A DNA stretch of 64,000 bases from Pseudomonas sp. J452 (GTDB lineage Bacteria; Pseudomonadota; Gammaproteobacteria; Pseudomonadales; Pseudomonadaceae), in the NCBI RefSeq assembly GCF_024666525.1, contig NZ_CP088294.1, positions 4,092,001-4,156,000 on the forward strand. Reading direction: 5' to 3'. The notes under the pieces are model-generated. The model searched no databases, was not told the origin of the DNA, and saw only the letters and a program-made list of their open reading frames with translations. A program made the position numbers and the translations under genes. This document shows, in pieces, positions 7,475 through 62,865 of this stretch; the first letter of the stretch is position 1; each line of letters begins with the position of its first letter.

Positions 7475-9949
7475 CTAGCTAAGGCGCCAGGGCTGCAGAT
7501 GGCTGCTATCCAGGCGCTGCCACTGGCCGGCCCGCACGAGTTCCTCCGGTGGCAGCCACAGCGCACCACGGGCCTCGAACTCGACCGAGGACAACGCCAG
7601 CAGCTGGCTCAGCTCGATGCGCCGTGCCTGCCATTCGCCGGCCGAGTCCTCATGCTCCCAGTCGCTCGGCAGTACGCGCAATTCGATACCGCCGACGTCG
7701 AAACCGAGGAACTGTGGCATGCAGCCGATATGGCTGGCCGTATCGCGCAGGGTGCGCTGCTGTACATCGAGCAGCAGCAGGTGCCACTGATCGGTGTCGA
7801 CCCGCTCGCTGGCTTCCATGCGCCGGATATAGCGAGTCAGGGCCAGGTAGCGGCCATCCTCCGACCAGATCAGCGACGGCCCCAGGTTGGCCAGGCCCAG
7901 GCCGGAAGCGGTCAGTAAACAGCCACCGCCGCGTGGATGACGCTCGCGCAGGTAATGATCGAAAAACTCGCTCTGCGCGCCGAACAGCCACAGTGCATCA
8001 CGGCCGCCCGGCGCCGGCAGGACGAAGTCGCCATCGGCATTGGCCACCTGAGATCGCTCGACCAGGCGCCAGTTCGGCAGCGCCTGCAGATCCTGTTCAA
8101 CGACGCGCAGATCCAGTGGCTGATAATAGGGCCGCGTGCTGGCATCCCCCTCGACAAAGCGCGTGGCGCGCTCGGCGGCCGGGGCGGCCTGGTCGAAACG
8201 GCGCAGCGGCGTATCGTGCTCATCCCGGCCGAAGCGCCCGAGCACCTCGGCCAGGCGCAGCACGCCGCCACGGAAATCCAGTAGACGCGCCACCAGCGGC
8301 TGCCCGGCGTAAGCCAGCAGGCGGCGCTGCTGCAGATCGGCCACATAGACCCGATGCGCCACCGCCGGCGCCTCGGCAAAGGCGACCAGAGCCAGGTAGC
8401 GGCCGCAGTCGGAAACCCGGTGATCGAGCAGCCACTCGCCCTCCAGCTGCCAGTCGCCGATACGGCAGGCATAGGCGCCCAGGCGACCGTCCTGGCTGTC
8501 GCGGCGCCAGTCGAAGCGTGCTGCGACCTCGCCGAGCAGCGGTTGGCTCAACAGCCCCGCTTCACCGCGTACGCCCTGCCCCGCCAGCGGCTGCAGCAGG
8601 GTCAGGCGGCTGCGGCGGTATTCGCCGAGCAGGATGCGCCCCTCGCCATCGTGGCCCACGCCAACCTCGTTATCGCTATAGGTACTGTGCAGGCTGTAAC
8701 CAAAATGCAGGTGATCGAGATAGGGCGCGTTGAAGCTGCCGGCCAGTTGCAACTGCTCCTGATCCAGGCAAATCGGCGCCTCCCAGAACAGATCCGGCTC
8801 GTCTTCGGCCTGGACCCAGCCGGCGGGCAGTTGCTGCCAGCCCTGGTCGGCCTGCCATAGCCACAGCGCGCGCGGCCAACGCCGGGTGGCGGCCAGGGTG
8901 ATGGCGTGGCAGATCAGGGCCTGACCGTCGGCACGCCACAGCGGCTGCTCGTCGGCATCGATCAGCAGTTCGCTCAACGCGCCATCGATCTCCAGGCGCA
9001 GGGCCGGGTAACGCAGCAGTTCGGTGGGGTCGTCCAGCTCACGCAGGTTGTCCGGCAGGTGGCTGATGCCACGCAGGCGATGCTCGCCGGCCGGCGCGGG
9101 GAATGCCTTGTCCGCCGACGCCTGGTGCCAGCCTGGTTCCAGCCACAGGTCGCGTACCGCCACCAGATCGACGCCCTCGCTTTGCGCCAGCAGGTCGGCC
9201 AGCTGCATGCGATAGCCCTGGTTGCCCACCAGCGGGCTGTGCCGACCGCTGATGGCCTGGTCGGTGAACTCGTCGATTTCCCAGAACTCGCCGATCTCGG
9301 CATTGCGGTACACCCGCCGTTCCTGCCGATCGAGGATCAGCAGACCCCAGCCCTCGCGGCTCGGCAAGGGCGCGGCAAAGTAGCGGCCGCTACTGGAAAA
9401 GCGCACAGAGGAACCCAGGCCGTCGAGCAGCACGCCATCGGGAAACAGGTAGGTGCCGTAGGTCGGCCCGCCCATGGCGATCTCGCCCATGGACAGACAA
9501 CGCACCGGCTCGCCCTCAGGAGTCAGCAGATCATCGCCATGCCAGGCGCTGGCCCCGCGCTGCGCGGGCGCCTCGATCGGCTGCGGCTTGGCCTTGGCCA
9601 GCCCCAGGTAGCGCTCGTAGCTGCTCACACAAGCCATGCCGACCAGCAGCAGAATCACGCAGACCGGAATACCCCACCAACTGGACATCCAGTTGAACAC
9701 GGAAAAGCTCAAGCCGATGACCGAGGCAGTCAGCAACCAACTCAGCGCATTGGCAGTTTTCAGCCAATTGAGCCGGGCGCACAGGCCGCTCAGCAGGCCG
9801 AACGACAGCACCACAGCCAGCGCCACCAGAGGATGCAGCAGGGCCACGGCTACAATCGGCACGATCAGCTTGGCCAGTTCCCAGAGCAACATCAGGACGA
9901 TCTTGCTCAGCGATGCCTTGGCCTCTTCCGGGGTTTCTTCGTACGACAC
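7475..9949 (-). CDS. Large inner-membrane protein with a propeller-like soluble domain, unknown function
   Basis: 824 aa. The first ~120 residues hold about four hydrophobic helices and the rest is a large soluble domain. Three spaced segments repeat the pattern GRY(F/L)A ... (L/V)xDxQxR(R/T), around residues 185, 510 and 700. Together with the many Trp/Leu-rich short strands this looks like a WD40/PD40-type beta-propeller, but that is inference. GTG at 9949 is the start: AAGGAG lies 7 nt upstream. It lies 53 nt downstream of the anti-sigma gene on the same strand and may belong to that regulon. No family name recognised. Confidence 0.7.
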   Translation of the reverse strand: MSYEETPEEAKASLSKIVLMLLWELAKLIVPIVAVALLHPLVALAVVLSFGLLSGLCARLNWLKTANALSWLLTASVIGLSFSVFNWMSSWWGIPVCVILLLVGMACVSSYERYLGLAKAKPQPIEAPAQRGASAWHGDDLLTPEGEPVRCLSMGEIAMGGPTYGTYLFPDGVLLDGLGSSVRFSSSGRYFAAPLPSREGWGLLILDRQERRVYRNAEIGEFWEIDEFTDQAISGRHSPLVGNQGYRMQLADLLAQSEGVDLVAVRDLWLEPGWHQASADKAFPAPAGEHRLRGISHLPDNLRELDDPTELLRYPALRLEIDGALSELLIDADEQPLWRADGQALICHAITLAATRRWPRALWLWQADQGWQQLPAGWVQAEDEPDLFWEAPICLDQEQLQLAGSFNAPYLDHLHFGYSLHSTYSDNEVGVGHDGEGRILLGEYRRSRLTLLQPLAGQGVRGEAGLLSQPLLGEVAARFDWRRDSQDGRLGAYACRIGDWQLEGEWLLDHRVSDCGRYLALVAFAEAPAVAHRVYVADLQQRRLLAYAGQPLVARLLDFRGGVLRLAEVLGRFGRDEHDTPLRRFDQAAPAAERATRFVEGDASTRPYYQPLDLRVVEQDLQALPNWRLVERSQVANADGDFVLPAPGGRDALWLFGAQSEFFDHYLRERHPRGGGCLLTASGLGLANLGPSLIWSEDGRYLALTRYIRRMEASERVDTDQWHLLLLDVQQRTLRDTASHIGCMPQFLGFDVGGIELRVLPSDWEHEDSAGEWQARRIELSQLLALSSVEFEARGALWLPPEELVRAGQWQRLDSSHLQPWRLS

Positions 9950-10002
9950 GGCGCGGCTCCTTGCGCGAGAAGGAGCCGCATTTTAGCCGTACGTCAGCGC
10001 CA

Positions 10003-10932
10003 CTAGCGGGAACTGGCCGGCTTTTCCGTCTCGCCCTGCAGACGCTTGAGCTCGGCGTCCAGATCTCGCTGCGGGTATTCCTGCTTGAGCACCGCCAGCA
10101 GCCGATCAGCGTCGGCGTGCATACCCTCCTGACGCAGACGCAGCACATTGTGCAGTTGCAGCTCCAATGGCGGCGCCTCGTCAACAGATGAGTGCCCGAG
10201 GGTCTCCGCCAGTTGATCCTCGCTCAGTGAGTCGCTCAGCCCTCCACCTGCCTGCGCCTGTGCATGGTCCTTGTCTCGCGCCTCGGAAGCGGCCTTGGCC
10301 TTGGCAAACGCCTGGGCGGCGGCCTGGTCTCGAGCCTTTGCACGAGCCATATCCGCTTCGACTGGCGCCGCGGCGGAATCGGCCAGGGCCTCGGCCGGCG
10401 GCGCTGCGGCCGGCTTGGCCGGTGCTGCCTGAGGCTGCAGAGCTGTAACCGGCGGGGAGGCCCTGTAGGCCACGTTGGGGGCGACCGCTCCGGCCATGGA
10501 CTCGGCGGCCTCGGCCTTCTTGCTCGCTGCCTCGGCTTTTTTGTACTCCACCTCGGCAGACGGCTGGTGAGCTTCGCGGGCCACCTGCGGCGCCATTTCA
10601 CCCAGCATGGGTGCTGCCGGCGCCTCGGCAGCGACCGGCGCGGGTATATCGTAGGCAGTGGGCGCCTGTTCCTGGGTGCGCCAGGTCAGGCTCAGGCTGA
10701 TGCCCAGCGTGGCCAGACCGGCAAACGCCACCGACCAGCGGGTACGGCTGCCGCGGCCGAACAGCCAGCCATGCAGGCGCTGGGCGGCGCTCGGCGTAGC
10801 CGGCACGACGGCCTGGCGGGCGGCGGCAAGGATCAGCGCATCCACGGCGGCAGACGGCTCACCCTGGCTGTGCTGGCGGTAATGCTGCAGCAGTTGCTGT
10901 TCCTGCTGCAGGTCTTTGTCTTGGGGGCTCAT
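10003..10932 (-). CDS. sbrR: Membrane anti-sigma factor, SbrR-like
   Basis: 309 aa. A ~65-residue cytoplasmic N-terminus is followed by one transmembrane helix (about 67-83), then a long Ala/Pro/Lys/Glu-rich periplasmic stalk with repeats such as KKAEAA, and a C-terminal helical segment. Its ATG overlaps the sigma-factor stop by four bases (ATGA), indicating translational coupling. ECF sigma gene plus coupled single-pass membrane protein is the standard sigma/anti-sigma arrangement. The SbrR name follows the recalled P. aeruginosa order (sbrI, sbrR and a membrane protein close to the atu genes), where the pair controls swarming and biofilm formation. No classical zinc-binding HxxxCxxC motif is visible. 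Confidence 0.68.
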   Translation of the reverse strand: MSPQDKDLQQEQQLLQHYRQHSQGEPSAAVDALILAAARQAVVPATPSAAQRLHGWLFGRGSRTRWSVAFAGLATLGISLSLTWRTQEQAPTAYDIPAPVAAEAPAAPMLGEMAPQVAREAHQPSAEVEYKKAEAASKKAEAAESMAGAVAPNVAYRASPPVTALQPQAAPAKPAAAPPAEALADSAAAPVEADMARAKARDQAAAQAFAKAKAASEARDKDHAQAQAGGGLSDSLSEDQLAETLGHSSVDEAPPLELQLHNVLRLRQEGMHADADRLLAVLKQEYPQRDLDAELKRLQGETEKPASSR

Positions 10933-11501
10933 GCGGATACCTCCTCGGCCGAAGCCGGATCGGCCAGCAGCCGACGCAACTTGTTCAACGCGTAACGCAG
11001 ACGACTCTTCACGGTTTCCGCCGGGGTCTGGGTGAGGTCGGCGATCTCGTGCAGTTCCAGATCACCATGGGCGCGTAGCAGGAACACCTCCCGCTGCTCC
11101 TCGGGCAGGTCGGCCAGGGCTGCCTGCAGGCGCTCCTGGTCACGACTGAGCAGCAGTTGCTGCTCGGGGCCGGGGCCCGGATCGGCGCTGGCGTGCTGCT
11201 GCTCGTCGTACTCATCGAGCTTTCCCTGGTGGCGACCGGACTTGCGCCAGTGGTCGATCAGGCGGTTACGCGCGATCTGGTACAGCCAGGTCTTGAACAA
11301 CACCGCCTCGCGTTGCTCGCTGGCGCTGCGGATCAGGCTCATCCAGGTGTCCTGGAACACCTCCTCGGCCAGGGCATGGTCGCCACACAGGCCCAGCAGG
11401 AAACGAAACAGGCCGAGGCGATGGCGCTCGTACAGCTGCGCAAAGGCCCCGGCATCACCTTGGCGATAACGCCGCAGCAGCGCGGCGTCATCGTCCTTCA
11501 T
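10929..11501 (-). CDS. sbrI: ECF RNA polymerase sigma factor, SbrI-like
   Basis: 190 aa. It has sigma-70 region 2 (LLRRYRQGDAGAFAQLYERH through FQDTWMSLI and FKTWLYQIARNRLIDHWR) and region 4 (LPEEQREVFLLR ... AETVKSRLRYALNKLRRLL), with an acidic/Gln-rich linker. ATG at 11501 is chosen because the protein then begins MKDDDAALLRRY, the usual start of this family; in-frame starts further upstream add unrelated residues. It is coupled to the anti-sigma gene. The sbrI assignment is by gene order and type; the ECF family is certain. Confidence 0.8.
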   Translation of the reverse strand: MKDDDAALLRRYRQGDAGAFAQLYERHRLGLFRFLLGLCGDHALAEEVFQDTWMSLIRSASEQREAVLFKTWLYQIARNRLIDHWRKSGRHQGKLDEYDEQQHASADPGPGPEQQLLLSRDQERLQAALADLPEEQREVFLLRAHGDLELHEIADLTQTPAETVKSRLRYALNKLRRLLADPASAEEVSA

Positions 11502-11557
11502 GGGTAGGTTCAAGCACGTATGCTCATACATGTGAATGGAGGCTCGGGCAAAACTGA

Positions 11558-11585
11558 GCGAAGCGCCCCTGACTAGGCGCTTCGC
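11558..11585 (-). terminator. Hairpin between the VWA gene and the ECF sigma gene
   Basis: Perfect 10-bp stem (gcgaagcgcc at 11558-11567 with ggcgcttcgc at 11576-11585), 8-nt loop. On the minus strand a TTTT run follows after six bases. It may terminate or attenuate transcription coming from the VWA gene, which would give the sigma gene its own promoter. Confidence 0.45.
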
Positions 11586-11626
11586 CGCAGGCAGTAGACC
11601 GACTACGACAAGGCGGAGCAACAACG

Positions 11627-13393
11627 TCAGGGCAGTTTTGCATGGGCCTCCGGAGTTTGCAGGCTTTGCGCCAGTTCGACCAGCTGTACGAACTCGGCAC
11701 GCAGGCCGTAGCGGTCTTCACCCTTGGCTCCACGGGCCAGCTTAGCGCTATCCGCCAGGCCGAACTCGCCGGTGTACTTGCCCTCTTTTAGCTGCTGGGC
11801 GAAGGCGGCCACGGCGGCGGCGAAGCGCAGGTCCTCGCTGGCCTGGGCGATCGGGGTCACGCCCTCGCCCTTATCGATCGGCACCTCAACCAGTTTGCTG
11901 CTGCCGCCCTCTGGCGCCTTGTAGCGCAGGCGCAGCCAGGCGATCTCGCCGGGTTTGCCCGCGGCCTTGCCGGCCTCGGCGTAGCGCAGCGGCTCCAGCC
12001 AGCCCTTGGCGCCGACCGGAACGATTTCATACAGCGCGGTAACCGTATGCCCGGCACCGATCTCGCCGGCGTCGATCTTGTCGTTGCTGAAATCCTCGCG
12101 CTTCAGCGCGCGGTTCTCGTAGCCGAGCAGGCGGTATTCGCTGACTTCGGCCGGGTTGAATTCGACCTGGATCTTCACGTCCTTGGCCACCACGGCCAGG
12201 GTCGAGCTGAGCTGATCCACCAGCACCTTGCGTGCCTCGCGCAGGTTGTCGATGTAGGCGTAGTTGCCGTCGCCGGCGTCGGCCAGCTGCTCCATCAACT
12301 GCTCGTTATAGTTATCGGTGCCGAAGCCCAGGGTGGTCAGCGACACGCCGGTCTTGCGCTTGTCGGCGGCCAGCTGCTTGAGGGTTTCGAAGTCGCTGAT
12401 GCCGACGTTGAAGTCGCCATCGGTAGCCAGCAGGATGCGGTTGATACCGTCCTTGAGCAGGCCCTTCTGCGCTTCCTGATAGGCCAGCTGGATACCCGAT
12501 TCGCCAGCAGTGGAGCCGCCGGCGCTGAGCTGGTCGATGGCCGCGCGGATCTTGGCTTTCTCGCTGCCGGCAGTGGACTCCAGTACCACGCTGGAGGTGC
12601 CGGCATAGGTGACCAGGGCCACGCGGTCCTGCGGGCGCAACTGATCGACCAGCAGCTTGAGGGTGCTCTGCACCATCGGCAGGCCTTCGCGGCGATCCAT
12701 GGAGCCGGACACGTCGACCAGGAACACCAGGTTGGCCGGCGGCAGGTCGGCGGCCTGCATATCGGAGGCCTTGATCGCCACCCGTAGCAGGCGGGTCTGC
12801 GGGTTCCACGGTGAGCTGGCTAGCTCGGTGCCAACGCCGAATGGGGTGTCGCCACTCGGTTGCGGGTAGGCATAGGGGAAGTAGTTGACCAGCTCCTCCA
12901 GGCGCACCGCCTCCTTGGGCGGCAGGCTGCCGTCGTTAAGGAAGCGCCGCACGTTGGCGTAGCTGCCGGTATCGACGTCGATGCTGAAGGTCGACACCGG
13001 CTGCTCGGCCACGGCATGCACCGGGTTGTCGGCGACTTTCTGGTACTGCTCGCGGTACACGTCCTGATAGCCAAACTGGGCGCTGTCGGCCAGCGGCGCC
13101 GGCGCGATCATCGGCATGCTCTGCGGCATCATCTTGCGCGCCTCCATGGCGCCGGCGACGCTGACCGCTTCGGCCTTGATCTTGGCCGGCGCGCGATAGG
13201 CTGCATTGGCGTCCACTTCTTCATGCAGCACGTGCTGCTGCACGACCGGTTCGATCGGTTTGGCCGCGGCTTTTTTCTCGGCGTCGCCAGGGGCGTCGTT
13301 ATTGGCGGCACTGCAGGCGGCCAGCGCCAGAGCCAGGCCGGCGCTGAAACCGGCGAGCAGGGGTTGGCGGATCAGGGTGCTGAGGTCGGACAT
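11627..13393 (-). CDS. VWA-domain lipoprotein (YfbK-like)
   Basis: 588 aa. Lipoprotein signal with lipobox LAAC (Cys27), a linker, a VWA N-terminal region (about 105-200), a von Willebrand A domain with intact MIDAS DVSGSM (227-232) and downstream threonine/aspartate motifs (ATDGDFNVG), and a C-terminal YfbK-type domain. This is the Pseudomonas/E. coli YfbK family; its role is not firmly known, but the VWA metal site implies protein binding in the periplasm. ATG 13393 has GGAG 9 nt upstream. It is directly upstream of the ECF sigma/anti-sigma genes on the same strand, which suggests a link to envelope sensing or the same regulon. Confidence 0.85.
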   Translation of the reverse strand: MSDLSTLIRQPLLAGFSAGLALALAACSAANNDAPGDAEKKAAAKPIEPVVQQHVLHEEVDANAAYRAPAKIKAEAVSVAGAMEARKMMPQSMPMIAPAPLADSAQFGYQDVYREQYQKVADNPVHAVAEQPVSTFSIDVDTGSYANVRRFLNDGSLPPKEAVRLEELVNYFPYAYPQPSGDTPFGVGTELASSPWNPQTRLLRVAIKASDMQAADLPPANLVFLVDVSGSMDRREGLPMVQSTLKLLVDQLRPQDRVALVTYAGTSSVVLESTAGSEKAKIRAAIDQLSAGGSTAGESGIQLAYQEAQKGLLKDGINRILLATDGDFNVGISDFETLKQLAADKRKTGVSLTTLGFGTDNYNEQLMEQLADAGDGNYAYIDNLREARKVLVDQLSSTLAVVAKDVKIQVEFNPAEVSEYRLLGYENRALKREDFSNDKIDAGEIGAGHTVTALYEIVPVGAKGWLEPLRYAEAGKAAGKPGEIAWLRLRYKAPEGGSSKLVEVPIDKGEGVTPIAQASEDLRFAAAVAAFAQQLKEGKYTGEFGLADSAKLARGAKGEDRYGLRAEFVQLVELAQSLQTPEAHAKLP

Positions 13394-54451: not shown

Positions 54452-55963
54452 TCAGTCTTCTCGGGTGACGCGCAGCACTTCTTCCAGGGTGGTCACCCCT
54501 TCCAGCACCTTGCGCCGGCCATCTTCGCGGATGCCGGGGCCGAGGCTGCGCGCGTGGCGGGTCAGTTCCTGTTCGCCGGCGCCGTTGTGCACCAGGGTGC
54601 GCATCTGCTCGTCGAAGATCACCAGTTCATAGATACCGGTACGCCCGCGGTAGCCCTGTTGATGGCATTCGCTGCAACCCTGGGCGTGGTAGATGGTCGG
54701 TGCGGCCTGCGGCTCGAGGCCGAGCAGGCTGCATTCGGCCGCGTCGGCCGGACGCGCTTCGCGGCAGTGCGGGCAGAGCACGCGCACCAGGCGCTGGGCC
54801 AGCACGCCGAGCAGGGAGGAAGACAGCAGGAACGGCTCGACGCCCATATCGACCAGGCGGGTGACGGCGCCGACTGCGCTGTTGGTGTGCAGGGTCGAGA
54901 GCACCAGGTGACCGGTGAGCGAGGCCTGCACGGCGATGTCGGCGGTTTCCTGGTCGCGGATTTCGCCGACCATCACCACGTCCGGGTCCTGCCGGAGGAT
55001 GGCGCGCAGGCCGCGGGCGAAGGTCATGTCGACGCGCGGGTTGACCTGGGTCTGGCCGATGCCTTCGAGGTAGTACTCGATCGGGTCTTCGACGGTGAGG
55101 ATGTTGCGCGTGCGGTCATTCAGGGTGACCAGGCCGGCGTACAGCGTGGTGGTCTTGCCCGAGCCGGTGGGGCCGGTGACCAGCAGGATGCCGTGGGGCT
55201 TGCGCAGGTTTTCGTCGAGCAAGCGGCGGTCGCGCTCACTCATGCCCAGGTGGGTGAGCGACAGGCGCCCGGCCTGCTTGTCGAGCAGGCGCAGTACCAC
55301 CCGCTCGCCGTTGGCCGAGGGCAAGGTGGAGACGCGGATGTCGACTTCACGGCCGCCGACCTTGAGCGAGATACGCCCGTCCTGCGGCACGCGCTTCTCG
55401 GCGATATCCAGCCGCGCCATGACCTTGACCCGCGAGACCAGCAATGCCGCCAGCTCGCGGCGTGGCTCGATCACTTCGCGGAGGATGCCGTCGACGCGAA
55501 AGCGTACGACCAGGCGTTTTTCGAAGGTTTCCAGGTGGATGTCGGAGGCGCCGGCCTTGATCGCCTCACCGAGGATGGCGTTGATCAGGCGGATGATCGG
55601 CGCGTCGTCTTCCTGCTCCAGCAGGTCGCCGGATTCCGGAGTCATTTCCGCCAGGCTGGCCAGGTCCAGCTCGGCGCCGAGGCCTTCGGCCATCAGGCGC
55701 ACTTCCGAGGAGTCGCGCTGGTAGGCGGTGGTCAGTGCCTGTTCGAATTCGGCGGGGCTCAGCCAGTGCAGCGGCAGCACCTGGCGGGCAAAGCGCTGGG
55801 CTTCCTGCAGGGCGGCCAGGGTCGCGCCTTCGCGCAGACACAGGCTGACCTGGCCGGCGTCTTCGCGCAGCAGCACGCCGTGGCGTTTGGCAAAGGCGAA
55901 AGGCAGCGGGCGCAGGGGCACGACTGCCGGAGCCGCTAGTGCGGCGTGAATATCGCTGGACAT
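54452..55963 (-). CDS. xcpR: Type II secretion ATPase E (XcpR/GspE)
   Basis: 503 aa. Walker [11 protein letters not shown], Asp-box, Walker B region ([19 protein letters not shown]) and the tetracysteine zinc motif (CPHC ... CSEC) are all present. ATG 55963 ([12 protein letters not shown]) is chosen; a longer in-frame start at 56041 would begin inside the repeat element. First gene of the xcpR-Z operon. The element at 56002-56147 lies only 38 nt upstream and may have displaced or altered the native promoter. Confidence 0.96.
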
Positions 55964-56001
55964 GCGCGGGCCCGTTCCTGAATGGCGAATTGCATCGGTT
56001 C

Positions 56002-56147
56002 TTAGAACCTGTTTGGGGTCTTTTGAGCTAGAGCCAGGCAAGGCGAAATTGGCCGAGGACGCGGAATTTACAAGGTGTAAATGAGCAGTCCGAGGCCAAT
56101 TTCAACGCAGCATGGCCGACGGTCAAGAGATCCGAGACAGGTTCTTA
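56002..56147. mobile_element. MITE-like element with imperfect terminal inverted repeats
   Basis: 146 bp, non-coding. The ends are ttagaacctgtt (56002-56013) and gacaggttctta (56136-56147), 10 of 12 pairing. The 74-bp core (56038-56111, containing tttac and tgtaaatgagca) aligns without gaps to that of the element at 17181-17328. I recall close copies in other Pseudomonas genomes. It is directly upstream of xcpR. Confidence 0.7.
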
Positions 56148-56256
56148 TTGTTATATGGCGCAATGGAGCGGCCAAGTTAACGGATTCAGTGGAAAAATAA
56201 AGGCCCGTGATTACGCTTTGTCGCGACAGTGCGGGCAATCACAGAACGGCACTGGA

Positions 56257-56286
56257 TAAAAAAGGCCCCGGCATAAGCCAGGGCCT
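56257..56286 (-). terminator. Terminator of the haem-dioxygenase gene
   Basis: 10-bp stem (aggccccggc with gccagggcct, one G-U pair), followed on the minus strand by a run of six T. Confidence 0.92.
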
Positions 56287-56315: not shown

Positions 56316-59057
56316 TTACTTGTCTTCGTGGCGCTGGTGCTTGAAGAACACCCCGCTGTCACCGAACGCCGAGGCGATCAGCGGCGAGGTCAGCTCCAGC
56401 TCGCCCACTTTCACCGCACTGCTGCGGCGTTGCTGGGCGTAGGTGCGGCTGGTGGACGGGATGATGGAGGTCTTGATCTCCATCGAGGTGGCGTACACGT
56501 CATACAGCTTGGTACCGGCGGTCAGAGTCACCAGATCGTTGCGGAAGTCGTGAGCGGCCGTGGAGAAACGGCTGCGCAGCTCGCTTTTCGGCACGAAGTA
56601 GATCTGCGTCGGTGCCTTGGGCGTGGTCACGGCCTGACCGTTCTGCGCGACCTTGGCGAAGTCGTCAACGCGCAGCAGGGTCGGCTTCAGGCTCACCGCC
56701 GAGAACAGGATGGTGGTGCCCAGGGTGTCATTGACTTCCGGCACCACGTACTGCGAGAGCTCGTTGGCGAAGAAGTTGTAGTTGCTGCCCTGACCGCTGA
56801 GGCTGTACAGCGCGGAGACGTTCTGCGACGGCTTGCCGTTGACGAAGGCCTTCCACGCCAACCCCGGCTGGAAGCCGTTCTTGGCCGGATCACCGGCTAC
56901 CGACAGGCGCAGCAGGCCGCTGTCGGCACCCTGGAACAGACCGGTGTAGGGGTTGCCCGCGACCGGAATGAACTTGACCTTGGCCATCACGCCATTCGGG
57001 TGCATGGCCTTCTCATGGCCCACCGGGGCGACGTCGGTGCGCTCCTGCACCTTTTTCCACAGCACCGAGCCAATCAGCCCACCGACATCCACCGGCGGGA
57101 TCACCGGCAACTGGCCTTCGGCGTACTGGGTGCGCAGTGCACCGTTGACCCACAGGTTGTCCTGTTTGGCCTGGGCCGGCCAGTTTTCGTAGTCGGCCGG
57201 GATGTTCAGACCCCAGGGCTTGAAGGCGTTTTCCACGCCCAGCAGGCTGCTGTCCAGCTGCGGGTTGTGACGCTTGAGCACGTCGACCATGGTGGTGTTC
57301 TCCACCCAGGCCAGGCCTTCGGCGGTGTACACCTCGGGACGGTAGTCCTTGGTGAAGAAGCGGTCGGTCATCAGGCGGCGCGAGGCGTTCATGATGAAGA
57401 TCTGGAACGCCGTTTCACCGAAGGCGAAGCCGTCCGGACGCACGGTTTCGGCGAGCATGCCGACCAGGGTGTCGATCTTCTCGATGTCGTTGCCGTAGAC
57501 CCGCTTGAGGTTGGCCAGGGCCACCGGCTCAGTGGTCAGGTCCTCGAACTTGGTGATCGGGTTGAGGCCGATCTCGCGGCGGAACTCGTTGTAGCGCGGC
57601 ACACCACGCTCACGATCACGCAGCACGTCGACGGTCGCCAGGTCGATGTTGCCGACCAGCGGGATCGACAGGTTGCGCAGGAAGTTCGGGTAGTTGTTGA
57701 GGGTCAGCGAACCCGGGTTGGTGATACCGAAGGAGTACCACAGGCGCTCCGGGCTTTCGCTGGACAGCAGGTCCTCGGCGTCACCGTCACGGGTATTGGG
57801 CAGCGGGATTGAGTTGGCGATCACGTTCGAGCCGATGTCGTAGACATCCACCTTGTCGCGCATCAGCGGGTGCATGCGGTACACGGCGACGAACTCTTCG
57901 GTGAGGGTGTACGGCACGCCGTAGTTGTTCGGATTGGTCGAACCGACGATACCGGCCAGGGCGTGGTCGATGGCCGAGCTGCCGGCCTGGCTGCCGTCGA
58001 TGCCGAGGATGCGCAGGACGAAGGAGTTGGAGCTGGCCAGGTCCTCCTGCAGCATGCGCGCCTCATCCTGGTACTTGTCGCGGTTCGGCCCGGAACCCAG
58101 CAGGCCCCACCAGTTGGCGTACATGGCACGCTCGGTGACCGGGTTGGCGATCACCGCCGGGGTCCATTCCACGGTGTGGATCTTGGCCATCAGCGCCGAG
58201 TTGGCCAGGCGCGCGCGGTCATACAGCCACTGGTCGCTCTGGCTCGGGTACTTCTGCTTGAGCATGCTGGCGATGGCGTTGTGTTCCTTGGTGAACAGCT
58301 GGTGCAGCATGCTCAGACCGACCCACCAGTTCTCGTTGACGCCGGTGATCGGCTTGCCGCTGAGAAACTCGCTGGGCAGGGTGCCATCGGCGTTGATCTT
58401 CAGCTTGCCATCGACGAAGGAACGCACCTTGTCGTTGGTTTCCTTGCTGCTGCCGTACAGCTGCGAGCCGTCCCACCAGTGGGTGTTGTGGTTGCGGTAG
58501 GTCTGCGGCTTGCCGGCTTCGGCGGCGGTGCGGGTCGGATCGAGCTGGGTGCGGCGTACCGACAGCGCGCCGCTGCCGAAGGCGTCGCCGGCCGGCAGCG
58601 GAATCTGGATCGGGTTGTCTTCGGCGTTAGGGCCGTGGTCGACCCAGTCATGGACCATGAACTGGATCCACGAGGCGGCGATGAAGTTGAGGCTCGGCGC
58701 CGGCTTGAACTCGCCACGGGCCATCAGCAGGTTACTGACTTCACGCGGATTGGGGCTGAGCAGGGTGTCTGCTTCGGTTTCACCCTGGGTGACCGTCGGG
58801 TCGACGTTACGCCCGAAACGCCGGTAGACAGAGCCTTCGGCCGGGTTGGCGAGGATGTTACAGGTGCCATCCTCGGTGCGTGCGCCCTGACTGCGCGCAT
58901 CGCAGGTGAGGTTGGCGTTGGCCGCCGGCAGGTTGTCGACGTCGAACAGGTTGTTCTTGAACAGCACATCGCGCTCGAGCGCGAGCGTGATCAGGCCGGC
59001 ATAAATGCCCAGGGTGCCGAGTTTGACCAGACTCGGCCATGTGACCCAAACAGACAT
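56316..59057 (-). CDS. Haem peroxidase/fatty-acid dioxygenase-like protein with a catalase-like C-terminal domain
   Basis: 913 aa. The first ~650 residues match the animal-peroxidase/cyclooxygenase/alpha-dioxygenase superfamily: distal HDW (His136) in FMVHDWVDH, KEHN (257-260), KIHTVEWTP (292-300), and TLTEEFVAVYRMHPL with Tyr393 three residues before proximal His396, the cyclooxygenase spacing. Plant alpha-dioxygenases share these blocks. The last ~230 residues contain MHPNGVMAKVKF, GLFQGADSGLLRLS and NFFANELSQY, which resemble the haem-pocket region of catalase-related proteins, but no proximal catalase tyrosine motif is seen. It probably oxygenates fatty acids. The N-terminus has a hydrophobic stretch but no clean signal peptide. 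GGAG lies 9 nt before the ATG. It interrupts the xcp locus and is downstream of a LuxR regulator gene. Confidence 0.82.
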   Translation of the reverse strand: MSVWVTWPSLVKLGTLGIYAGLITLALERDVLFKNNLFDVDNLPAANANLTCDARSQGARTEDGTCNILANPAEGSVYRRFGRNVDPTVTQGETEADTLLSPNPREVSNLLMARGEFKPAPSLNFIAASWIQFMVHDWVDHGPNAEDNPIQIPLPAGDAFGSGALSVRRTQLDPTRTAAEAGKPQTYRNHNTHWWDGSQLYGSSKETNDKVRSFVDGKLKINADGTLPSEFLSGKPITGVNENWWVGLSMLHQLFTKEHNAIASMLKQKYPSQSDQWLYDRARLANSALMAKIHTVEWTPAVIANPVTERAMYANWWGLLGSGPNRDKYQDEARMLQEDLASSNSFVLRILGIDGSQAGSSAIDHALAGIVGSTNPNNYGVPYTLTEEFVAVYRMHPLMRDKVDVYDIGSNVIANSIPLPNTRDGDAEDLLSSESPERLWYSFGITNPGSLTLNNYPNFLRNLSIPLVGNIDLATVDVLRDRERGVPRYNEFRREIGLNPITKFEDLTTEPVALANLKRVYGNDIEKIDTLVGMLAETVRPDGFAFGETAFQIFIMNASRRLMTDRFFTKDYRPEVYTAEGLAWVENTTMVDVLKRHNPQLDSSLLGVENAFKPWGLNIPADYENWPAQAKQDNLWVNGALRTQYAEGQLPVIPPVDVGGLIGSVLWKKVQERTDVAPVGHEKAMHPNGVMAKVKFIPVAGNPYTGLFQGADSGLLRLSVAGDPAKNGFQPGLAWKAFVNGKPSQNVSALYSLSGQGSNYNFFANELSQYVVPEVNDTLGTTILFSAVSLKPTLLRVDDFAKVAQNGQAVTTPKAPTQIYFVPKSELRSRFSTAAHDFRNDLVTLTAGTKLYDVYATSMEIKTSIIPSTSRTYAQQRRSSAVKVGELELTSPLIASAFGDSGVFFKHQRHEDK

Positions 59058-59200
59058 GGCTATATCTCCCGATTTTTATTGTATTAGCTACGGTAGGGGG
59101 CCGGATTTTCCGGCTGCCGGGAGAGTAGGGATTTGCGCCGCCCCCTCCCCCCCTCCGTGGGAGGGGAAAGTGGCGATTCGACTGCCGTTGGTCGCGGTGA

Positions 59201-61828
59201 TCAGCTACGGGGATGCTGGCTGAGGATGGCTTCGGTGCGGCTGGAGAGGTTGAGCTTCGAGTAGATGTTCTTCAGGTGCCACTTGGTGGTGGACAGGGCG
59301 ATGCCCATGCGTGCGCTGATTTCCGTGTTGGACAGGCCGCTGAGCAGGCAGTCGAAGATCTCCACCTCCTTGCCGGTCAGCAGACTGGTCAGATCCGGCG
59401 CGGGCGCCGGTGCGGTGCTCTCGGCCAGAAGGAACTCGGCATAGGTCTCGCGGTACTTTTCCGGCACGTCCAGCTGCCCCGACTGCAGCAGGCCGAGTAC
59501 CGCTTCGGCGAAGCCGGGCGCCTCGTCGAACACCGAGCGGTTGATGTTGACGATGCCGTAGTGCTGCACCAGTTGCAGCAGCGCGCGCAGCTGCTCGTCC
59601 TTGCTCAGTTGCGGCGCGCTGAGGACCAGCAGGTTGGCCTCGACCACCAGGGTGCGCGCCTTCATCTCGCTGCGCCGCAATGACTCGGCGAGTACCTTGA
59701 GGATGCGACAGGCGCGCGGCTGGGCGCCACGCTGCACCAGCCAGTACACGGCGGCCAGGCCATAGCGTTCCCAGCATTCATCGTAGGACCGCGCCCGCTC
59801 CCACTCCCCCGCCGCCAGCCGCTCTTCGATGCCCAGGCGCTGGGCCAGGGCATCCAGCGCCGCCGGACGACCGCCGAGGAAGGCCTGACGCATGCTCTCC
59901 TGCGCCACCTGGCTGGCGAAGCGGGCGTAGTTGCCCAGCTGCAGAATGCGTGACAGCTGTTCCAGCAGGCGCCCGGCGCGGCCATCGGACTGGCGCCGAT
60001 AGAGCAGGCGCGACAGGGTGATGTGCACGGTGGCGATGGTCTCGGTGGCCGAAGACGAGCTGACCACGGCCATCAGGTCCTCGCACAGCTGCTGGGCCGC
60101 GGCCAGCTGGTTCTGTTCATAGAGCGCCACCACCATGGCCGTGGCCCGGTTGACCCAGGCCGGCGAGGAGCGCTCGGTGCGCTGGTAGTCGTGGTAGACA
60201 TCCTTGCGCGCGCTGGTGGCGCGACAGGCGTTGCGGTTGCACAGGGCGATGATCAGGTCGGCGTAGCTTTCCAGAAAGCTCTGTCCGGTCTGCTCCAGCA
60301 GCGCCTTGGCCTCCAGCGCCATGCTGATGGCCTGCTGCAGGCGGGCGTTGAGCAGGTGGTGATAAGACAGGATGGTCAGCGCCAGCGCGCGGATCTCCGG
60401 CGGCACCCCAGCGGCCAGCAGGTCGGACCAGCGTTCGCCGGGGGTGAAACCGAGATCGAACTGGAACAGCTCCAGATTGAGTGCCAGCAACTGCCGGGTC
60501 AGCACATCCACCGTCGGCTCGCGACTGGCGCGCGCGCCCAGCTCGTCCAGGCAATAGCGCGCCTGGTGGAAGCGCCGCGACAGGGTCAGCGCGTAGACCA
60601 TCGGCACCAGCAGGCGTGGGCTGGCGAACAGTTCGCTTTCGCTGAGCGGCTCCAGCCACTTGAGCACCTCGGCGAAATGCCCGGAACGCACCCACTGCTC
60701 GCAAGCCTCCTCCAGCATGCGTCGAAACAGTTCCGCATCATTGCTGCGCTGGGCGTGCTGCAGGGCCTGCTCGAGATCGCCGCGCTGCTGGAAGCAGTGC
60801 GCCGCACGGCGGTTGAGCGCACCGATGCTCTGCGGCTGCTCGACTGCCAGGCGCGCGGCGAGGAAGTCATGCAGCAAGGCATGGTAGCGATACCAGCCCG
60901 GCTGATTGTCCACCGGCAGCATGAACAGCTCGCGCACGGCGATATCTTCCAGCAACAGCGCCGAGCCACTGCGCTCCAGCACGTGATCACACAGGTCGCC
61001 ATCGAAGCGCTCGAAGATCGCGCTGCACAGGAAGAAGTCGCGCAGGTGCGGCGACAGGCGCTTGAGCACCACATGGCCGAAGTAGTCGACAATCTCCGGC
61101 TGGCTGCCATTGAAGCGTTCCAGGGCGATGGTGCCGAAGCGGGCATAGGCCAGCAGCGCCACCTTGACCCCGGCGACCCAGCCCTCGGTCATGGCCATCA
61201 GGCTGTCGACGTAGGTCGAGCTGAGGCTCGGCCCGCCGAGGTGGGCATTGAGCTGCTGGATCTGCGCCGCCGACATGCGCAGGTCGTGCTGGTCGATGCA
61301 CAGCAGCTTGTTTTCCAGCTTCAGCCGGCTGAGGGAGAATCCCGGATGGTTGCGGCTGGAGAGGATCACCCGGGTATCGCCGGACAACCGTTCGAGCATC
61401 GCCGACAGCACGTCGAGAATGGTTGGCTGACTGATGTGTTGGAAGTCGTCGAGGACGATGTACAAGCCGCCGGCAATCCGCTCCAGGGCATCGGCCAGGT
61501 ATTCACCGACTACTTCGGGCGCCTGGTGCATCTCGGCGGCGAAGGGGTTGAACCAGGAGATGTCGAAGTCCTCGACCTGGCCGCGAATGGTCTCCGCCAG
61601 GCGGCGAAAGAAACGCACGGGATCATTGTCACGCGCCTGCAGCGGGTAGTAGACCACCCTGCGCCGGGTATCCCCGGCCTGCCAGTGGGCCAGCAGGGTC
61701 GATTTGCCCGAGCCCGCAGGCGCCAGCAGCAGCGTCAGGGGGAAATGCTCGCAGTGGCTGAGCAGCTCCAGCAGTTCCTCGCGGGCGAATCCAGGAGGAA
61801 TGACGGAGGAAGGCTTGCGGTCTTCCAT
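59201..61828 (-). CDS. MalT-type LuxR-family transcriptional regulator
   Basis: 875 aa, a LAL/MalT size. Walker A is APAGSGKST (36-44), Walker B is IVLDDFQHI, there is a long helical-repeat sensor region, and the C-terminal LuxR helix-turn-helix is LTGKEVEIFDCLLSGLSNTEI with ISARMGIALSTTKWHLKNIY. It likely activates target genes in response to an ATP-dependent signal. It precedes the dioxygenase gene on the same strand with a 143-nt gap, so the dioxygenase is the obvious candidate target. It is divergent from xcpP. Confidence 0.92.
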   Translation of the reverse strand: MEDRKPSSVIPPGFAREELLELLSHCEHFPLTLLLAPAGSGKSTLLAHWQAGDTRRRVVYYPLQARDNDPVRFFRRLAETIRGQVEDFDISWFNPFAAEMHQAPEVVGEYLADALERIAGGLYIVLDDFQHISQPTILDVLSAMLERLSGDTRVILSSRNHPGFSLSRLKLENKLLCIDQHDLRMSAAQIQQLNAHLGGPSLSSTYVDSLMAMTEGWVAGVKVALLAYARFGTIALERFNGSQPEIVDYFGHVVLKRLSPHLRDFFLCSAIFERFDGDLCDHVLERSGSALLLEDIAVRELFMLPVDNQPGWYRYHALLHDFLAARLAVEQPQSIGALNRRAAHCFQQRGDLEQALQHAQRSNDAELFRRMLEEACEQWVRSGHFAEVLKWLEPLSESELFASPRLLVPMVYALTLSRRFHQARYCLDELGARASREPTVDVLTRQLLALNLELFQFDLGFTPGERWSDLLAAGVPPEIRALALTILSYHHLLNARLQQAISMALEAKALLEQTGQSFLESYADLIIALCNRNACRATSARKDVYHDYQRTERSSPAWVNRATAMVVALYEQNQLAAAQQLCEDLMAVVSSSSATETIATVHITLSRLLYRRQSDGRAGRLLEQLSRILQLGNYARFASQVAQESMRQAFLGGRPAALDALAQRLGIEERLAAGEWERARSYDECWERYGLAAVYWLVQRGAQPRACRILKVLAESLRRSEMKARTLVVEANLLVLSAPQLSKDEQLRALLQLVQHYGIVNINRSVFDEAPGFAEAVLGLLQSGQLDVPEKYRETYAEFLLAESTAPAPAPDLTSLLTGKEVEIFDCLLSGLSNTEISARMGIALSTTKWHLKNIYSKLNLSSRTEAILSQHPRS

Positions 61829-62196
61829 GGCAGTGTCCCGTCGGGCTTATTTTTATTGTTGAACGGAAAGCGCTTGGCGGCCGATGATAACGGCCGGGGG
61901 GCGGGAAAATCCGAAGCAGATCACGCTTCTGGCAGCAAAACTGCCCAGTCGCTGACTGACGCAGCGGTACCTTTTATCGTGCCTGGCGGCGCGGACTGCG
62001 GAAAACGTCCGGCTGCGCGCTTGTTCACCGCACTGTCAGGGATTTCTGGCTGAATCCCCGAGTGCATGACGGAGCGCGCACAGCCCGAACAGTTGCGGTA
62101 TGGTTGGCGCTGCTCCGCGCATGATGGGGCGAGCAGGCGCAGCGCGAATACGCCACCTGACTGCATAGAATAAGAAAATCATTGGGGGATGATGCA
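61829..62196. other. Divergent promoter region of the LuxR gene and xcpPQ
   Basis: 368 nt with no credible gene. It contains an inverted repeat ggcag-N5-ctgcc (61931-61935 with 61941-61945) and a second larger hairpin-prone stretch around 62108-62142. GGGGG (62184-62188) is the ribosome binding site of xcpP. No quorum-sensing operator could be established; the inverted repeat does not fit the usual las/rhl spacing. Confidence 0.5.
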
Positions 62197-62865
62197 TTGA
62201 GCGCAACAGGCACCCGCCTTCCTGGCTGGCTGCAACGCCATGGCGTGAGCGGCCTTTGCCTGCTCGTGGTGGCAGGCATGAGCCTGAGCCTCTCCTGGCA
62301 GATTGTCGATCTGCGGCGTCTGCTGCACAGCCCGGCGCCAGCGGCCGACAGCGCCCCCGCTGCCAACCAGAGCCAGCCCCTTGCGGTAGAACCCCTGCAG
62401 GGCCTGTTCGGTACGCCCGTACAGCAGAATGGTGATCAACCGGCGCCGCCTACCAACCTGCAGCTGACCCTGCTGGGCAGCTTCGTCAATCCGGACAGCA
62501 AACGCTCGACGGCGATTATCCTGGTGGCCGGTGGCAAACCCCGGCGCCTGACCGTCGGCGATGAAATCAATAGCGGCGTGCGCCTGCAGGCTGTGCACCA
62601 GGATCATGTGGTGCTGAGCCGCAACGGCCGTGAAGAAAGCCTGCACTTCCCTCGCCTGCGCACGGCGACAGCTGCAGCAGCCACCTACAGCGAACAGTAC
62701 GATCCGCAGTATGACGCTGCGGAGCCGACCGCCGAACAGCTTGAGCACCTGCAGAGCGAAGACGTTCAGCAGTTGCAACAGCGCATGGAAGTTCTCCGTC
62801 AACAAATGGAAGGCGATGGCACCACGCCGCCGACCGAAGCGCCAGAAGCCGAAATCAGCCAATGA
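62197..62865 (+). CDS. xcpP: Type II secretion protein C (XcpP/GspC)
   Basis: 222 aa. Cytoplasmic tail, one transmembrane helix (GLCLLVVAGMSLSLSWQIVDL), a homology region domain (LQLTLLGSFVNPDSKRSTAIILVAGG), and a C-terminal coiled-coil segment instead of PDZ, as in XcpP. The TTG at 62197 is chosen as start: GGGGG stands 8 nt upstream and no ATG or GTG precedes the transmembrane helix in frame. It links the inner-membrane platform to the secretin. Overlaps xcpQ by 4 bases. Confidence 0.9.
   Translation: MSATGTRLPGWLQRHGVSGLCLLVVAGMSLSLSWQIVDLRRLLHSPAPAADSAPAANQSQPLAVEPLQGLFGTPVQQNGDQPAPPTNLQLTLLGSFVNPDSKRSTAIILVAGGKPRRLTVGDEINSGVRLQAVHQDHVVLSRNGREESLHFPRLRTATAAAATYSEQYDPQYDAAEPTAEQLEHLQSEDVQQLQQRMEVLRQQMEGDGTTPPTEAPEAEISQ

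Follow-up and report, generated by a model that had tools for sequence, protein, structure and literature searches.

Organization of the locus

In a 64,000-nucleotide stretch of the Pseudomonas sp. J452 genome (contig NZ_CP088294.1, positions 4,092,001 to 4,156,000; hereafter the window), the gap between xcpR and xcpP of the type II secretion locus is filled by two genes encoding a haem dioxygenase and a MalT-type LuxR regulator. An earlier note had described both genes from the sequence, and their coordinates and strands proved right by the open reading frame (ORF) list and Pfam (Table 1). We computed domain identities, residue conservation, a candidate operator and its co-occurrence with the regulator, a terminator-like stem and synteny, using 80 dioxygenase loci fetched from other genomes and 298 genomes of the genus, the window's own (G000) included. 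As a whole, the data point to a dedicated activator–enzyme pair, in which the LuxR protein would serve the dioxygenase gene, the dioxygenase would carry out bienzyme chemistry and the xcp genes would stand apart. We regard this explanation as reasonably probable.

Table 1. Genes and sequence features around the xcpR–xcpP interval, in window coordinates
Feature	Position	Strand	Basis
Two-domain haem dioxygenase gene, 913 aa	56316..59057	-	ORF list, Pfam, alignment, structure comparison
LAL (MalT-type) LuxR regulator gene, 875 aa	59201..61828	-	Pfam AAA_22 and GerE; MalT-like N-terminal half
xcpR (gspE), type II secretion ATPase	54452..56041	-	Pfam T2SSE; likely ATG at 55963, by eye
xcpP (gspC)	62182..62865	+	Pfam T2SSC
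Palindromic candidate operator CCCCTCC-N3-GGAGGGG	59149..59167; exact core 59150-59166	.	Motif scoring, genome scan
-10-like hexamer TACTCT	59122..59127	-	Read from sequence; 31 nt from palindrome centre
Intrinsic terminator-like stem, 3' of dioxygenase gene	56263..56286	-	Alignment and terminator calling
xcpR promoter block AATCCGTTAACTTGG, conserved, different from the dioxygenase operator	56172..56186	-	Locus alignment
MITE-like repeat, dispersed, 146 bp, between xcpR promoter block and likely xcpR start	56002..56147	.	

Pfam assigned the 913-aa protein to An_peroxidase (E 5e-108). The 875-aa protein contains AAA and GerE domains (Pfam) and has the size class of approximately 900 aa, the N-terminal ATPase and the C-terminal GerE domain that characterize the LAL family. 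The terminator-like stem, which separates the dioxygenase gene from xcpR, is similar in 16 aligned loci with the pair between xcpP and xcpR.

The dioxygenase combines an α-dioxygenase domain with a putative catalase-fold domain

By predicted fold and catalytic residues, residues 1–619 of the 913-aa protein are a fatty acid α-dioxygenase (α-DOX). In structure comparisons its fold was nearer to α-DOX than to cyclooxygenase or peroxidase, and the N-terminal helix matched the α-DOX fold starting at residue 1. Alignment identified H136 as the distal, Y393 as the catalytic and H396 as the proximal residue, with H294 and R561 as substrate residues; all five are invariant across 36 sequences. In the alignment with the rice enzyme (4kvj), counted by hand, they correspond to His157, Tyr379, His382, His311 and Arg559, respectively, the roles being taken from the available part of PMC8720084 and from the title of 4kvl. 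No CXXCH motif was seen in the translation, read by eye. Since the enzyme is predicted to be an α-dioxygenase, oxygenation would occur at C2 and a 2-hydroperoxide or a C(n−1) aldehyde is the expected product.

The second domain, residues about 605–913, had no accepted match in Pfam or NCBIfam. Its model appears to fold like a catalase-related protein, as the catalase core was recovered by Foldseek in a loose superposition. Residues H686, R717, S719, N746 and H907 are invariant in the domain and also in standalone relatives at 33% identity. H686, R717 and S719 pair with the distal His, Arg and Ser of catalase, and N746, matched by eye, is a candidate for the Asn. The HxxG and RLS segments were paired with those of catalase by hhalign, below significance. 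We infer that the second domain may also hold a haem.

Several observations weigh against this assignment. The kinship with catalases comes solely from the predicted fold, the full-length model is moderate (pLDDT 72.8) and the superposition on the catalase-type fold is loose (TM 0.37, rmsd 11.8), with one match at E ≤ 0.001. In profile comparisons by hhalign, the domain reached a probability of 0.4–0.5% against catalases and 0.2% against small catalase-like proteins. A profile search of solved-structure sequences gave no catalase, the top match being an unrelated lumazine synthase (3.5e-4). A sequence-level tie to catalases was rejected, none being significant in Pfam, NCBIfam, the solved-structure profile search or hhalign with shallow and deep alignments. 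Moreover, the ligand tyrosine of catalases is missing: the final residue of the domain aligns with position 354 of bovine catalase, short of the ligand position, which we take to be Tyr357. Residue 910 is variable (H, N, S, V, D, Y and others), and the two tyrosines that the domain does conserve, Y852 and, almost throughout, Y855, are located upstream of the ligand position. A tyrosine at this position is absent also from the printed standalone relatives.

These standalone relatives are approximately 325 aa long (e.g. L097:1333-2358) and belong to no Pfam family. Several of those printed have a lipoprotein-like N-terminus, as judged by eye, and they stop soon after the same histidine, P0249 and P0338 having a longer tail. 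The domain thus represents a conserved protein family that has no Pfam or NCBIfam model and occurs also as standalone (lipo)proteins; its fold suggests hydroperoxide chemistry.

A palindrome at the dioxygenase promoter co-occurs with the regulator gene

Alignment of the luxR–dioxygenase intergenic regions of the window and 39 loci yielded a palindrome, CCCCCTCC-N2-5-GGAGGGGG, about 100–160 bp 5′ of the dioxygenase start codon. It was scored out of 16 in 78 of the 80 loci, L065 and L079 being omitted as the N-terminus of the enzyme is absent there. All 54 loci with a co-directional neighbouring luxR, 15 of them independent of the motif derivation, scored 14–16. Scores of 13 or 14 were obtained for five of six loci with a divergent neighbouring luxR, and of 13–15 for four of four in which luxR lies further off. 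No luxR was present in the fetched stretch of 13 loci, nine of which scored 7–10, and here the palindrome is absent. As background, a score of 13 was reached by 12 of 4000 random pieces from the same loci. The distance between the palindrome centre and a TAnnnT hexamer was 30–31 nt in 47 of the 54 loci and 26 or 29.5 nt in two; in five no hexamer was found.

The window genome has a single exact core, at the dioxygenase promoter. An exact palindrome was found somewhere in 41 of the 298 genus genomes, and the backward control pattern in 11 (counted from the listing). Comparison of coordinates placed an exact site at the dioxygenase promoter in 13 of the 16 enzyme-carrying genus genomes, and 27 of the 282 genomes without the enzyme have one anywhere. 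The correlation has exceptions, which count against a strict coupling: scores are 8 in the divergent locus L036 and 11 in L074, where the luxR match is weak, and four of the 13 loci without a detected nearby luxR reach 12–15. Likewise, G109 and G118 have the enzyme and no exact site, and G266 has a site elsewhere only.

The upstream regions of xcpP and xcpR in 17 loci reached best scores of 9–12, which is background, and have their own conserved blocks. The palindrome was therefore rejected as an xcp operator, and the co-regulation with xcp that the earlier note had raised finds no support, the dioxygenase gene also having its own terminator-like stem. Because it co-occurs with the regulator, sits at the dioxygenase promoter and is single in the window genome, the palindrome has the appearance expected of a dedicated operator of the dioxygenase gene. 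The same link to luxR, its absence from nine regulator-less loci and from the xcp promoters, and the single core suggest that the dioxygenase gene is most likely the regulator's only target.

In L059, L060, L063, L064 and L075 (Thalassolituus- and Oceanobacter-type), which have neither regulator nor palindrome, a gene for a GspE/PilB-like ATPase and a small unknown gene directly precede the dioxygenase gene. The ATPase of L059, where this was tested, has an MshEN domain.

Distribution and genomic context of the gene pair

The enzyme was detected in 16 of the 298 genus genomes, counting the window's own and two fragmented ones, so that, as the earlier note had supposed, the pair is not general to Pseudomonas. 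A control with PF03098 detected it in none of 14 named genomes, among which PAO1 is not known to be. In PAO1 the xcp halves are presumably directly divergent.

Chance does not account for the arrangement in the window. Of the 80 fetched loci, 17 have the pair between xcpP and xcpR (L002 has about 3 kb of further DNA ahead of xcpR), and the 17 enzymes form one clade with a support of 0.999 in a tree of 77 sequences. In 13 further loci, luxR and the dioxygenase gene are followed by a convergent xcpQ, with xcpP and xcpR beyond where the contig permits. L065 resembles this xcpQ-side arrangement, as do two Atopomonas loci with extra DNA in between. The block is bordered by metZ in both arrangements (L001 versus L012, L028, L034 and L035); none was seen in L030. 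Among five stretches fetched from enzyme-less pseudomonads, three (L145, L146, L148) have the order metZ-xcpQ-xcpP-xcpR without the pair; metZ is missing from the stretch fetched for L147, and the order in L149 is different.

A full-length xcpR at ≥77% identity is present in 44 genus genomes, G270 with a partial xcpR gene being omitted, and 16 of these have the enzyme. The dioxygenase gene is directly upstream of xcpR in 10 of the 298 genomes, the window's included. Among the 30 best xcpR loci, again with the window, the upstream gene is the dioxygenase gene in 10, gspC in 19 and neither in one. Five of the 19 gspC-upstream loci belong to genomes that have the enzyme elsewhere beside xcp, and 14 to genomes without it.

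Carriers outside Pseudomonas and Atopomonas had no xcp genes in the fetched stretch, a distant GspE-like gene occurring in five; Alcanivorax and Marinobacter have the pair itself without xcp. The earlier note had interpreted the pair as an insertion into the xcp locus. This is disfavoured because related pseudomonads have the same pair across xcpQ, on its other side, and because the pair stands without xcp in the fetched stretches of Alcanivorax and Marinobacter. From the gene order, a single exchange of places between the pair and xcpQP within one interval is the likeliest history, rather than insertion of a module into a divergent promoter. The xcp genes would be linked to the pair by position only and are probably mere neighbours.

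Seven loci of Moraxellaceae, Alcanivoracaceae and Teredinibacter (L020:4284-6776, L033, L058:11985-14435, L038, L072, L027, L031) encode near the pair a protein of approximately 800 aa with two CxxCH motifs, whose weak similarity to di-haem cytochrome c peroxidases does not reach the NCBIfam cut-off. A GMC oxidoreductase gene separates the gene for this protein from the dioxygenase gene in L058. In the Atopomonas locus L028, a protein with HD and GAF domains (9696-12728) is encoded between the dioxygenase gene and xcpQ; its cluster mates are located upstream of luxR in L034 and L039.

The occurrence of the pair without xcp elsewhere and the neighbouring protein weakly like di-haem peroxidases, a kind of enzyme that makes oxylipins in P. 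aeruginosa, favour a role as a putative lipid-oxidation module. The earlier proposal of a self-contained oxylipin-type module, made of a fatty-acid dioxygenase and its adjacent cognate regulator, is supported to this extent and can be sharpened to an α-dioxygenase with a second, catalase-fold domain, which had been missed.

Proposed mechanism and alternative explanations

In the proposed mechanism, the LAL protein, possibly with a fatty acid or a derivative as ligand, would bind the palindrome, whose centre about 31 nt from the -10 hexamer on the upstream side corresponds to a position near -42, and would activate the dioxygenase gene only, which ends in its own putative terminator. The N-terminal domain, with its haem and Tyr393, would oxygenate a free fatty acid at C2 with O2, forming the 2-hydroperoxide. 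The fused C-terminal domain might convert this product to the C(n−1) aldehyde and CO2 or to a 2-hydroxy acid, as modelled on the allene oxide synthase (AOS) and hydroperoxide lyase (HPL) domains of corals that act on lipoxygenase (LOX) products. The xcp genes would be transcribed from separate promoters. The chemistry, the ligand, DNA binding and activation rather than repression are what we infer from the computed features.

The C-terminal domain might instead be no enzyme and carry no haem, serving as a lipid-binding, membrane or dimerisation module, while α-DOX acts alone and the 2-hydroperoxides decay to aldehydes spontaneously. This is quite conceivable, if short of an even chance. The ligand tyrosine of catalases is absent from the fusions and the printed standalone relatives, the sequence relation to catalases is not significant, and α-DOX frames without the second domain exist in G398 (590 aa) and in G382 (625 aa, with a stop inside the matched stretch). 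However, the residues paired with the distal His, Arg and Ser of catalase, the candidate Asn and the near-C-terminal His are all invariant, for which a purely structural role offers no obvious reason. For the active domain, our most specific proposal is a widespread bacterial bienzyme under a single-target LAL activator, in which the α-dioxygenase passes its 2-hydroperoxy fatty acid on to a fused, new type of catalase-fold haem domain, whose axial ligand would be other than the catalase tyrosine (candidate H907). We advance it tentatively and with some doubt. If true, it would be the third independently built fusion of a lipid dioxygenase with a hydroperoxide-converting domain, coral AOS-LOX and fungal DOX-P450 being the first two.

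The regulator, probably OrfV of the P. alcaligenes xcp literature, could also mainly control type II secretion or lipase production, with the dioxygenase as a passenger. The position of the pair inside xcp in 17 of 80 loci would fit, as would the positive feedback proposed for OrfV in the 1998 Xcp and lipase study, according to the accessible part of PMC4589675. We consider this unlikely, given the background scores upstream of xcpP and xcpR, the one exact site in G000, the pair without xcp in the Alcanivorax and Marinobacter stretches and the terminator-like stem of the dioxygenase gene itself. A functional tie of the enzyme to the secretion apparatus, or its export as a type II substrate, which the earlier note had entertained, is very improbable. 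The pair is kept beside xcp in two arrangements (17 and 13 loci), but a common metZ–xcp interval can reflect shared ancestry, and among the 30 best xcpR loci, 14 have xcpP directly divergent and belong to enzyme-less genomes. Moreover, carriers beyond the two genera lack xcp in the fetched stretch, the N-terminal segment fits the α-DOX fold from its first residue, and no signal peptide was evident by eye (no predictor used). There is, finally, hardly any likelihood that the palindrome is an RNA hairpin or the luxR terminator. In favour of this, the 54 co-directional loci have the palindrome downstream of luxR, and its sequence would allow a strong stem; however, a T-run is absent and no terminator was called there in the window, the palindrome is also present in five of six loci with a divergent luxR, and its spacing to the -10-like hexamer is nearly fixed.

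Relation to known systems

For bacterial α-oxidation, a two-domain form that is conserved and comes with both a regulator and a defined candidate operator would bring induction, ligand and products within reach of tests on a single gene pair and promoter. The N-terminal domain resembles the plant and cyanobacterial enzymes OsαDOX (4kvj), AtαDOX (4hhr), CalDOX and LepDOX in its fold, haem ligands, catalytic Tyr and substrate His and Arg; it differs by approximately 300 extra residues forming a second domain and by the adjacent LAL regulator gene. For the α-DOX phylogeny in PMC8720084, whose residue roles we used, N- and C-terminal extensions were trimmed from the alignment, and its main text, as far as it was available, showed no occurrence of the word catalase.

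As in coral AOS-LOX and HPL-LOX, a hydroperoxide-making domain is fused to a putative catalase-fold domain, and 3dy5 was third in Foldseek (E 0.052). In the coral fusions, however, the partner is a lipoxygenase and the domain order is reversed, and no counterpart of their proximal Tyr353 (PMC5617202, available part) was found in the window protein. Fungal DOX-P450 enzymes of the linoleate diol synthase type likewise fuse a cyclooxygenase-like dioxygenase domain with another domain that acts in the same pathway (PMC13049297, in the part available) and is a cytochrome P450, unlike that of the window protein. The predicted bacterial oxylipin chemistry has a parallel in the 10S-DOX and 7,10-diol synthase of P. 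aeruginosa (PA2077 and PA2078). These belong to the di-haem cytochrome c peroxidase family, have two CXXCH motifs, are periplasmic and make oxylipins (accessible part of PMC4496055), whereas the window protein has no CXXCH.

The regulator shares the N-terminal ATPase and C-terminal GerE domain with MalT, AlkS (by description only) and P. alcaligenes OrfV; unlike other LAL regulators, its target is apparently a single α-DOX gene. The LuxR gene of the window probably corresponds to OrfV, with OrfX as a presumed neighbour. Should OrfV be identical with the window's regulator, the latter was already published in 1998, and a re-reading of the P. alcaligenes xcp-locus gene as a lipid-oxidation rather than a secretion regulator is suggested. 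OrfV is described as a LAL protein from the Xcp and lipase work of Gerritse et al. (1998) in the available part of PMC4589675. A plasmid search for AlkS gave matches that were all below 60% identity, the best listed at 27% and none named AlkS.

In the literature searched, as far as the texts were available, no description was found of the fusion or the gene pair, of the candidate operator, of the α-DOX identity of the luxR neighbour or of the second domain. In word searches of two proteomics papers, peroxidase and dioxygenase were absent from that on Thalassolituus, and peroxidase occurred only as KatG or in general in that on Oleispira, with nothing on the enzyme in either.

A dispersed repeat upstream of xcpR and a second gsp cluster

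The repeat next to xcpR, described earlier as resembling a miniature inverted-repeat transposable element (MITE), is indeed dispersed and has imperfect inverted ends. It has at least 46 matches in the window genome, itself and fragments counted (40 of 158 candidates scored). Given its position between the xcpR promoter block and likely start, and its absence there from the close relatives L001 and L010, judged by gap length, the repeat may change the xcpR leader of this strain.

The window genome contains a second gsp cluster (L144, G000:C1:3553000-3572500), preceded by a 1878-aa ORF with RTX-like repeats, as seen by eye. Compared with the xcp copy, gspE-gspF DNA is 96.9% identical over 2706 bp and gspG 88.9% over 594 bp, whereas the GspH to GspM proteins are only 42–58% identical, a pattern that resembles the outcome of partial gene conversion or recombination. 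Of the 298 genomes listed, the window genome alone has two gspE matches at E 1e-160.
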